Positions 52,332-64,000 of a stretch of 64,000 nucleotides of DNA are shown here, piece by piece. Made by a program: the position numbers and the translations under genes. Source of the stretch: Pseudomonas sp. KBW05. Lineage in GTDB: Bacteria > Pseudomonadota > Gammaproteobacteria > Pseudomonadales > Pseudomonadaceae. Location: positions 329,181-393,180 of the forward strand of contig NZ_QAJM01000014.1 in NCBI RefSeq assembly GCF_003852405.1, read 5' to 3'. Each line of letters opens with the position of its first letter. Within the stretch, counting starts at the first letter, position 1. The notes below the pieces were generated by a model that was not told where the DNA came from, did no database searches, and saw nothing but the letters and a program-made list of their open reading frames with translations.

Positions 52332-53321
52332 TTAACGGCGACCGAGCAGGCCTACCCACTGCACCAGCAGCGCTTCGAGCAACAGCACGCGGTTGAGGTT
52401 GGCCTTGCCGAGCACCTTCTGGCGCTGGGCCAGAATCCAGTCCTGAATGTTGAGCACCTTGTCCTGGGCGCTTTTCTGCGCGAGGTACTGCACCACCTTG
52501 CGCATGTCCGGCAGGCCCAGGCCGTTTTCGTCCTGGGTCAACTGGTAGCGCAGGATCAGGCTCGACCAGTCGCAGAACCAGTCGAACAGCAGCAACAGCG
52601 GAATATCCTTCCAGGCCGTTTCGCCCAGTTGGGTGGCGGACAGTTCCTGCTTGAGCAGTTTCTTCACGCCATCCACCACCAGCGCGCGTTGCTCACGCAC
52701 GCCTTGGGCCTGCAATTTCACTGCGGCCAGCGGCGAACCGGCGGCCAGGGTGAGCAATTCGCCGCGCTCATCGCTGCTGCATTCCGGCAACGCCTGCGCC
52801 AGCCACTCCAGGCTCATGGCCTCGCTCGGCAACGGGCAGGCTTGCTGTACACAGCGACTACGGATAGTCGGCAGCAAGCGACTGGACTGGTGACTCACCA
52901 GCAACAACACCGTATCGCCGGACGGCTCTTCCAGGCTCTTGAGCAAGGCGTTGGCGGCGTTGATGTTCATCGCCTCCACCGGCTCGATCAACACCACTTT
53001 GCGCCCGCCCATCTGCGCGGTCTGCACCACGAAGCTGACGAGATCGCGGACCTGATCGACCTTGATCGCCTTGTCGGCTTCTTCGGGTTCCAGCAGGTAA
53101 TTGTCCGGGTGGCTGCCCGCCTTGAGCAGCAGGCAGGATTTGCACTCGCCACAGGCTTCCAGATTGACCGGACGCTGGCACAACAGGCTGGCCATCAGGC
53201 GTTCGGCGAGCGCACGCTTGCCGATGCCAATCGGCCCGTGCAACAGATAGGCGTGGGCATGCTGGGCACGTCCCGCCAGTTGCTGCCAGAGGCTGTCCTG
53301 CCACGGGTAGGCTTCAGCCAC
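52332..53321 (-). CDS. holB: DNA polymerase III subunit delta'
   Basis: 329 residues from GTG 53321 with GGAG seven bases upstream. Features: [15 protein letters not shown] (nucleotide-binding loop, residues about 23-36), zinc-binding cysteines 48, 57, 60 and 63 (CGECKSC), [51 protein letters not shown] core (fragments [19 protein letters not shown]) and SRC. Essential clamp-loader subunit. It overlaps the truncated tmk by eight bases and therefore probably depends on transcription coming from the island end. Confidence 0.95.
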
Positions 53322-53652
53322 GGGCGCGCTCCAGCAGGGTCGGCAGCAAGGCATCGATGGCCTGCTGCACCTGGGTCAGCGGCTGGGCGGCATCCAACAG
53401 GTAATAACGCGCTGGCTCAGCCTTGGCGCGGGCGAGGAACGCACTGCGCACCGCGTCGAAGAAAGCGCGGCCTTCCAGCTCGAAGCGGTCCAGGCGACCC
53501 CGGGCGCTGGCGCGGGCCAGGCCGACTTCCACCGGCAGGTCGAACACCAGGGTCAGGTCGGGACGCAGATCGCCCTGCACGAAGGTTTCCAGCGTAGCGA
53601 TGCGCTCCAGGGACAAGCCCCGGCCGCCGCCCTGGTAGGCATAGGTGGAATC
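53314..53652 (-). pseudogene. tmk: Thymidylate kinase, 3' fragment interrupted by island
   Basis: Only the C-terminal portion of Tmk remains: from [18 protein letters not shown] through [22 protein letters not shown] to [11 protein letters not shown]. About 95 N-terminal residues, including the P-loop and the DR motif that binds dTMP, are missing. The native reading stops being Tmk-like at about 53,652, where AT-rich foreign sequence begins; an ORF continues into the island to a start at 53,682 ([10 protein letters not shown]), which cannot encode an active kinase. Tmk phosphorylates dTMP to dTDP and is essential. Confidence 0.88.
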
Positions 53653-53663
53653 TTGTTTTGGAA

Positions 53664-53693
53664 TGGACAGAAATGGAAACAAAAGAATATACT
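53664..53693 (+). promoter_or_regulatory. Inward promoter for dNMP kinase and cassette
   Basis: TGGACA (53664-53669), 18-base spacer, TATACT (53688-53693), 60 bases before the kinase start. Overlaps the outward promoter. Confidence 0.55.
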
Positions 53694-53714
53694 CAGCTAA
53701 GAAAAAAATGTAAA
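53686..53714 (-). promoter_or_regulatory. Outward promoter toward tmk fragment and holB
   Basis: On the minus strand TTTACA (53709-53714), 17-base spacer, TATATT (53686-53691), each five of six matches to the sigma-70 consensus. Transcription would begin near 53,679 and run into the tmk remnant, holB and possibly tatD. Confidence 0.65.
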
Positions 53715-53753
53715 CAAACTAAAAATACGTTACGGATCAGGGACTTAACTATA

Positions 53754-62784: not shown

Positions 62785-63293
62785 GCTGCAAACTCCATTT
62801 TACAATCTGTGAGCACTGGACTTAGTGGCGCAATGCTACTATCAAGCTAGGGGTGTGTCTATGCGCCACTCAGGATGGCTGGATGCAGGCGAAAGCGAGG
62901 GGCTTGCATTGTGCCAAACTCAAACCAACCTTCTATGATTTCGTTGGTACGATCGGGCGATGGGCGTGCCAAATGTGCCATAGTCACGCAAGGTGATTAC
63001 GTATGGTGTTATGGGCCAACAGATCAATACGCTGCCCCTACCGGGCCGTCTGTCGTGAACCAAGCGACCGAAGTGTTCCGGCGTCTTTGCCTTTCGGCGT
63101 CCAATCTCGCGCGTGCGCGCTCCACTCGCTTACTAGCACCATGTCCAGACTTCTGTCCCACTTAGCAAAACAGAAGTCGAGCGAAGTACTGGCGAGCGGT
63201 CTTACAAGGCCATCTTTCGTGATGTAGCGATCAGCTGCTTCAATCCTGCTGCGCAATCCCAGCCGTGTTGAAGTCACGTAGCGTTCGATCAAG
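62785..63293. other. Intergenic region of island with inverted repeat
   Basis: 509 bases. AGTGGCGCA (62824-62832) and TGCGCCACT (62862-62870) form a 9-bp inverted repeat about 40 bases upstream of the ATPase start, a possible operator or promoter-associated structure. Repeat copy B lies at 63041-63131. No convincing gene. Confidence 0.5.
63041..63131 (+). repeat. Diverged repeat, copy B
   Basis: Partner of 61261-61360, same orientation. Both lie at the borders of gene modules rather than within genes. Confidence 0.6.
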
Positions 63294-63731
63294 CTATCTC
63301 AACGTTGGTCTGAAGCGACTAAGGTAGCTGTTAAGCAGATCAAAGCGCGCCTGTTCATCGGTGGAAGGCTCCGGCGCTGATGTCTCGCCCTGTCTCCGCC
63401 ATTCGATAACTCTGTCCCAAATTCGCCACCTCCGAGTCTCTAAAGAGTAGGCGCAGTCGCTTAGTCCGATACAGAGCAGGTAAGCCTGCTCTGCCGTCAG
63501 CAGATGCTCGTCATTACCTTTGCCGAACATAATCCCGCCGTCATGGAGCATCCGGATACATAAGGCATTCGCAGGGTAATGCGGGTCGGCGCCCGTGCCT
63601 TCATACAACCACGCTACCCCCATGAAGCGGAATGTCGGATTAACGTCGTACCAAGTGTCTTCAGAGAAGCTTAGTACCTGCTTTTGGCCATCGTATGGCG
63701 TCACGTTCAGCAGGCTTCCGACCCATGGCAT
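63294..63731 (-). CDS. Island hypothetical protein, 145 aa
   Basis: 145 residues from ATG 63731, nine bases after the upstream gene, so probably coupled to it. Trp/Tyr-rich, with FMGVAWLYEGTGADPHYPANALCIRML and AEQAYLLCIGLSDCAYS-like segments (no domain recognised). Possible cargo. No membrane segment. Confidence 0.55.
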   Translation of the reverse strand: MPWVGSLLNVTPYDGQKQVLSFSEDTWYDVNPTFRFMGVAWLYEGTGADPHYPANALCIRMLHDGGIMFGKGNDEHLLTAEQAYLLCIGLSDCAYSLETRRWRIWDRVIEWRRQGETSAPEPSTDEQARFDLLNSYLSRFRPTLR

Positions 63732-63740
63732 GCGACTGGC

Positions 63741-63953
63741 TTACAGGCCTGCGCGTAACAGCGACATGAGCAGCCCTTGGGCAAGCGCATCAGCTTGCCG
63801 AGCGTTCCACCGATCCGATACGTCTCCAAGCACCATGTCGATTGAGCTCCCATCCTCAGTCGTGGCTGACACTCGGGTCACCAACCGGTGCAAATAATGT
63901 TCGCTCCGGGGAACGTCAAAAAACTTTGGCGTTTTGGATGCAACAGATTTCAT
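63741..63953 (-). CDS. Island hypothetical protein, 70 aa
   Basis: 70 residues from ATG 63953 with GGAG seven bases upstream. Begins MKSVASKTPKFFDVPRSEHY, with a C-terminal helix RQADALAQGLLMSLLRAGL. First gene of a two-gene unit with the 145-aa protein. No family recognised. Confidence 0.55.
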   Translation of the reverse strand: MKSVASKTPKFFDVPRSEHYLHRLVTRVSATTEDGSSIDMVLGDVSDRWNARQADALAQGLLMSLLRAGL

Positions 63954-64000
63954 TAATAAACTCCGTAAAGGTTTCTATACCTAAGGAATCTCCGAACAAG

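Follow-up and report, generated by a model that had tools for sequence, protein, structure and literature searches.

A split thymidylate kinase gene and an element-borne phage-type dNMP kinase as its proposed replacement in Pseudomonas sp. KBW05

Known tmk islands and the split gene of strain KBW05

Thymidylate kinase (Tmk) is a near-universal enzyme, and its gene, tmk, is essential. The closest described system is the tmk island of Pseudomonas putida KT2440, for which the island-encoded deoxynucleoside monophosphate kinase (dNMPK) PP_1964 was proven to be the sole thymidylate kinase (Wirth et al. 2023, PMC10653934). According to the available part of that paper, PP_1964 could not be deleted, its inactivation required E. 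coli tmk in trans, and it complements an E. coli tmk deletion. The KT2440 tmk gene is likewise split (294 / 339 bp), and the dNMPK gene is the last gene of the island, accompanied by four conserved neighbours. The same source reports tmk islands in Halomonas, Acinetobacter and Psychrobacter as well as stand-alone dNMPK genes in Alcaligenes and Parapusillimonas. The core of the arrangement described here, a split tmk and its replacement by a dNMPK, is already published for KT2440 (PMC10653934). In the available part of this publication we found neither an analysis of the junctions and the target site nor counts for the whole genus, and no mention of scars, of an internal duplication or of a variant that carries a Tmk; measured against that part, the exact target codon with its 6-nt spacers, the scars and the tree of repeated conversion, the internal duplication of the DNMK clade and the foreign-Tmk element are new. 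No nearer literature was found among open-access papers.

The window, i.e. the whole stretch of 64,000 nucleotides that was analysed, corresponds to C6:329181-393180 of a 6.52-Mb genome in 69 contigs, and its end is the end of contig C6. The 3′ part of tmk (codons 99 to stop, 339 bp including the stop) is located on the minus strand at 53314..53652 and overlaps the start of holB. It matches PF02223 at positions 90-185 only. The abrupt end of this reading frame, which had been noticed in a preliminary description of the window, falls exactly at 53652, in the codon GAT of D-S-T-Y-A-Y-Q, and the AT-rich sequence mentioned there begins with the element at 53653. The missing 5′ part was expected beyond the window and was indeed found on contig C20 after mltG, where codons 1-98 (294 bp) occupy L001:1480-1773 (C20 72,914-73,207). 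Taken together, 294 and 339 bp give a 210-residue tmk that is cut after codon 98. The order on C20 is mltG, tmk codons 1-98, six nucleotides and the other element end.

C20 and C6 are linked by synteny only. The size of the island is at least about 79 kb if all of C20 past the junction belongs to it (C20 sequence was covered up to 92,000). An assembly artefact is an unlikely source of the split, since a tmk divided at this very codon recurs in nine further genomes, five of which consist of a single contig. The preliminary description had considered a chimeric tmk at the far junction, which we can dismiss because the N-terminal half reads 14 codons into the element and then meets a stop. It had also considered a second tmk elsewhere. 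A weak Tmk-like gene is present on contig C12 (213 aa, full-length PF02223 match over the cut-off, 36 bits), and apart from this gene and the two tmk halves no Tmk-family match was found in the genome. With the KT2440 island this locus shares the position of the kinase gene beside the 3′ part of tmk and four conserved genes including recombinases, matched by arrangement; strain and cargo are different.

Kinase gene, recombination module and ends of the element

The first gene of the island (53754..54587, plus strand) encodes a long-form deoxynucleoside monophosphate kinase (DNMK) of 277 aa, the proposed replacement dTMP kinase. The phage-type motifs previously recognized in this gene were confirmed by matches to PF21448 (E 5.5e-26, 92 bits versus a curated cut-off of 27.1) and to phrog_139 ‘deoxynucleoside monophosphate kinase’. 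The motifs RSGKDT, ADPLK, GTEW and KDIRFENEA are invariant or nearly so across 16 DNMK sequences. Long DNMK belongs to the same family as T4 gp1 and other phage dNMP kinases according to a profile comparison, in which the T4 enzyme (PDB 1DEK) was matched with E 8.7e-14. In contrast to these phage enzymes, long DNMK has an extra stretch of ~100 residues, which repeats the preceding ~40 residues: residues 36-76 resemble residues 117-157, and for 38 of 40 long forms none of 200 shuffles reached the observed similarity (exceptions L131 and L134). Matches of short-form DNMK skip residues ~99-198. A total of 444 phage records match DNMK, and the 15 listed align either in two pieces (34-36% identity) or over the length with about 27% identity. 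For nine DNMK pairs, eight of them pairs of stand-alone genes, dN/dS is 0.07-0.21; the compared pairs are under purifying selection. The same genome also contains a short-form DNMK (G000:C13:129903-130436, open frame of 203 aa).

Four plus-strand genes, designated X, Y, Z and W, directly follow the DNMK gene in a nearly gapless array (54590-61104). X (54590..56800, 736 aa) has no Pfam match and is considered tyrosine-recombinase-like on the basis of a GH...TTD..Y end read by eye, while Y (56790..58832, 680 aa) is a tyrosine recombinase according to PF00589 (1.4e-20). Z (58829..59824, 331 aa) is a putative DNA-binding or coiled-coil partner as judged by eye, with no Pfam match under 0.04. W (59824..61104, 426 aa) is assigned to the tyrosine recombinases by a weak PF00589 match below the cut-off and a match to the XerC model (1.1e-5). 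X adjoins DNMK in 8 of 15 loci of the genus and in 16 of the 31 loci of a wider scan. The cargo includes an AAA ATPase gene on the minus strand (61474..62784), which matches the PADLOC candidate defence protein PDC-S59 (1.5e-75). At the far end of the island (L004, C20:73000-92000) a Shango defence system (SngA, SngB, SngC) and an adjoining impB/mucB/samB-type gene are located at 8329-14433 and 14767-16047 of this locus.

The element end at 53653..53715 (plus strand) consists of a TTGTTTT terminus and two GGAAAC/GTAAAC repeats (53674-53680 and 53709-53715). Similar repeats occupy similar places in the 26 right ends listed; GTAAAC-like repeats are present about 20 nt in at both ends, and a second one at about 55 on the right end. 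A hexamer search revealed promoter-like sequences directed towards the kinase gene (TGGACA-18-TATACT, 53664..53693, plus strand) and towards the tmk 3′ part and holB (TTTACA-17-TATATT, 53686..53714, minus strand), i.e. two pairs observed at this end versus 0.2 expected. When the same rule was applied to the 26 right ends, an inward match was found in 10 (18% in shuffles) and an outward match in 11 (17%), the comparison being made with mononucleotide shuffles. These numbers weakly suggest an inward and an outward promoter at the element ends. Because of the promoter-like hexamers, which relatives share only in part, the kinase gene may be expressed from the element's own end.

Insertion target and related elements

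The cut follows TGYGAYCGNTTYACC (DRFT) in all ten left junctions of the genus set, and in the wider set 15 of 18 loci gave a left-junction row (L195, one of the remaining three, is a 3′ half). The same cut codon was assigned in the 27 distinct right junctions listed, and in 23 of them, including those of Psychrobacter, Kangiellaceae and other gammaproteobacteria, it immediately follows the element end ACAA. As the codon positions derive from a BLAST alignment with the tmk 3′ part, the adjoining element end is the independent support, available for these 23. The last bases of the element end differ in P. bohemica, P. japonica, Acinetobacter and UBA4617 (4/27).

The six nucleotides next to the right junction fit GAYKCN in 24 of 27 cases. 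At the junction within the window this 6-nt spacer, comprising the codons D-S, lies at 53647..53652 (minus strand), and a different set of six nucleotides is found at the far junction (L001:1774-1779). On the left side the six nucleotides fit GAYKCN in some genomes and do not in others, this genome included. As the two junctions carry different spacers, excision need not restore the native codons; loss of the element would be lethal unless excision is precise, as proposed earlier.

A conserved hexanucleotide at one junction with a varying other side resembles the 6-bp footprint described for strand-biased circularizing elements (SEs) and, citing others, for Tn554 (PMC10214605). Four recombination genes, large recombinases and terminal repeats are further features that the available part of this source describes for SEs. 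Assignment to the SEs was rejected, as X, Y and Z have no detectable homology to the SE proteins of pAQU1 (IntA, Tfp, IntB and Srap, picked by gene order) and the gene order differs; W reached a probability of 39% with IntA. The GInt elements (PMC5385486) and the ILE of rulB (PMC4542609), as far as the available parts of these papers describe them, are alike in the presence of a small partner beside three recombinases at one end, in site specificity and in variable cargo. The likeness to GInt is one of description, with pUM505 ILE proteins as the only ones compared, and the small partner is absent from pUM505. Homology does not favour an assignment to the ILEs either: none of the three ILE recombinases of pUM505 was found to be homologous to X, Y or Z, and the match of W to ILE_1 (90% probability) probably reflects general integrase similarity.

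Among 369 class-level genomes X was found in this genome only. A further X-Y-Z-W element in G152 (L233, G152:C9:115000-134900, at 10375-13269) is inserted in the P-loop codons of tmk, and its first gene encodes a foreign full-length Tmk, not a DNMK. The remainder of the native tmk lies ~104 kb away and lacks part of the Walker A motif. This element represents a second, apparently independent case of a proposed replacement. A search for X of G152 in 144 relatives yielded G152 itself and one weak match with 23% identity. Cousin X-Y-Z-W elements of G214 and G228 (L230, L231) are devoid of a kinase gene and have alike flanks at a chromosomal site; no tRNA was found at these two sites. A distant X-Y-Z-W set is present on p727-IMP (L210, 8478-16526), where a PAPS-reductase-family gene directly ahead of X occupies the place that the kinase gene has in the tmk elements, and genes for an AAA ATPase and a UvrD helicase follow.

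Distribution of DNMK and alternatives for the kinase function

Some DNMK match was obtained in 37 of 399 congeneric genomes, 16 of them with a long form (this genome included) and 21 with short or partial matches only. All 16 long-form genes are located beside holB at the tmk locus, and a search of the whole genomes revealed an intact canonical tmk in none of the 16. In ten of them (KBW05 and nine others) tmk is present in two halves, which in the one-contig genomes are separated by 12.6 to about 114 kb. In five, DNMK lies between holB and mltG, the only trace of tmk at this place being a 20-codon scar in G163, and the draft genome G085 has a decayed tmk 3′ part beside DNMK. The one-contig genomes G307 and G395 gave no Tmk-family match at all.

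By comparison, 377 of the 383 genomes without long DNMK reach a Tmk match of full strength (E ≤ 8e-44), according to a genome table that scored 8 first-look candidates per genome. G152 is included in this number through its element-borne Tmk, and the number therefore does not stand for intact native genes. Among the exceptions, G075 and G240 are incomplete genomes in which the search did not reveal holB either, tmk is split by the ends of the record in G139 and by contig ends in G179, and G385 has a full-length Tmk with a weaker match. The one-contig genome G108 has no tmk between mltG and holB and encodes a distant Tmk of 233 aa elsewhere; this locus (L097, L080), in which holB is split into two frames, is another replacement of canonical Tmk.

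A scan of 84,980 species genomes yielded 71 loci, 31 of them long-form, six of which apparently come from genomes already included in the genus set. In all 31, DNMK adjoins the tmk 3′ part or holB, with holB alone in L112 and L120. A tmk 3′ part is present in Pseudomonas, Acinetobacter, Psychrobacter, Glaciecola, Kangiellaceae and other gammaproteobacterial assemblies; it is missing from Alcaligenes, Parapusillimonas, another Alcaligenaceae, P. fuscovaginae and P. cremoricolorata. No intact tmk was found in the 30 long-form scan genomes searched (L124 was left out): any Tmk match is missing in ten, including four Alcaligenes, eight have halves only, and twelve have a weak full-length match (22-47.5 bits), some besides halves. 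One of the 30, the Methyloprofundus genome of 2.1 Mb, is probably incomplete. Within the genus Alcaligenes none of ten genomes searched gave a Tmk-family match. In Acinetobacter sp. CFCC 10889 (L123), split tmk and DNMK occur with no X-Y-Z-W match within 10 kb.

We consider it highly probable (about 0.93), judging from sequence comparison and the KT2440 experiments, that the element split tmk, that its phage-type dNMP kinase performs the phosphorylation of dTMP and that the host depends on the element. In this reading, a site-specific integrative element, whose X-Y-Z-W module comprises three proteins of the tyrosine-recombinase type and a coiled-coil protein that putatively binds DNA, inserted into tmk at the border of the codons for DRFT and those for D[A/S]TYAYQG, which belong to the conserved core of thymidylate kinase. 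The insertion destroyed tmk, and the host would survive through the dNMP kinase encoded by the first gene of the element, on which it would from then on depend for dTMP kinase. Later decay of the element would leave a stand-alone DNMK. The genome comparisons document that tmk is split at a fixed target, that the element has the recombination module, that loss of tmk and DNMK occur together, and that a stand-alone DNMK results from later decay; the same activity in this 277-aa DNMK as in its KT2440 relative is suggested by analogy. The earlier proposal of an essential gene serving as insertion site for an element that brings a replacement enzyme is thus supported by comparative evidence and proven for the corresponding KT2440 arrangement.

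Some observations speak against a full coupling. The KBW05 genome itself has the weak Tmk-like gene on C12 and the short-form DNMK on C13, either of which could contribute to the kinase function, and P. parafulva NS96 has both an intact tmk and a DNMK homologue (PMC10653934, available part), so that the coupling of tmk loss to DNMK is not absolute. That the C12 gene is the real thymidylate kinase and DNMK passive cargo is very improbable in our view. Its full-length PF02223 match would fit such a role, as would similar weak genes in 7 of the 15 other long-DNMK genomes of the genus (32-37 bits) and in the 12 scan genomes mentioned above. However, such a gene is absent from G382, G325, G172 and G096, which combine split tmk with DNMK and also lack a short DNMK, and from G307, G395 and G315, which have DNMK alone; moreover, PP_3363, its probable KT2440 counterpart if orthology is assumed, was deleted without effect (PMC10653934, available part). 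Even less probable is an expression of both Tmk halves that assemble into a working enzyme. Both reading frames are open in KBW05 and in nine further genomes, but the 3′ half is decayed in P. bohemica, reduced to 20 codons in G163 and UBA4617, and undetectable in G307, G395, P. fuscovaginae, P. cremoricolorata, G003, Alcaligenes and Parapusillimonas. Furthermore, the upstream half could be deleted in KT2440 without effect (PMC10653934, available part).

The decay of the element can be followed in G163 and UBA4617, where no recombinase was matched and most of tmk is gone; the first 20 codons after the insertion point remain, with scar scores of 76 and 71 versus maxima of 34 and 33 in 30 shuffles. 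No tmk 5′ remnants above shuffles were found near mltG in stand-alone loci. A maximum-likelihood tree of 48 rows (40 long and 8 short forms) places the 40 long forms on one side of a fully supported branch. It is unrooted, carries a long-branch warning of the tool, and includes 24 of the 31 scan loci (L113, L115, L116, L117, L119 and L136 were omitted as duplicates, L129 by choice). Stand-alone genes are scattered among element-borne ones with 7 changes, at least 6 of them forced by well-supported branches, if P. bohemica L048 (contig end, decayed tmk), L112 (mltG outside the stretch) and L120 (4.3-kb contig) are grouped as stand-alone and L123, with its split tmk, as element-borne although no match to the module was found within 10 kb. 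These data argue for a repeated conversion of element-borne to stand-alone DNMK; as the root is unset and the long-branch warning applies, the number of events is left unclaimed.

Wirth et al. 2023 (PMC10653934, available part) left open whether stand-alone dNMPK genes derive from elements or are ancestral, a question to which both the scars and the tree are relevant. An ancestral stand-alone DNMK at the tmk locus, taken up later by mobile elements, would agree with the deep branches of Alcaligenes and Parapusillimonas, given the uncertain root and the long-branch warning. Against it stand the spread of stand-alone genes among element-borne ones and the scars of G163 and UBA4617, which begin at the insertion codon and indicate the direction for those two, not for Alcaligenes; we regard this order of events as very improbable. 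It is on balance probable that X-Y-Z-W elements follow a target-and-replace strategy, in which core codons of an essential gene serve as the insertion site and the first gene of the element supplies an isofunctional enzyme, with at least two origins in this element family, one with DNMK at DRFT/TYAYQG and one with the foreign Tmk of G152 at the P-loop codons, and that repeated decay leaves whole lineages, perhaps Alcaligenes, permanently without Tmk. According to this, a mobile element can land in an essential gene by bringing a replacement, and such a landing can end in the permanent displacement of a near-universal enzyme. This has a bearing on lists of essential genes and on Tmk as a drug target, as the bacteria named here should not depend on canonical Tmk.
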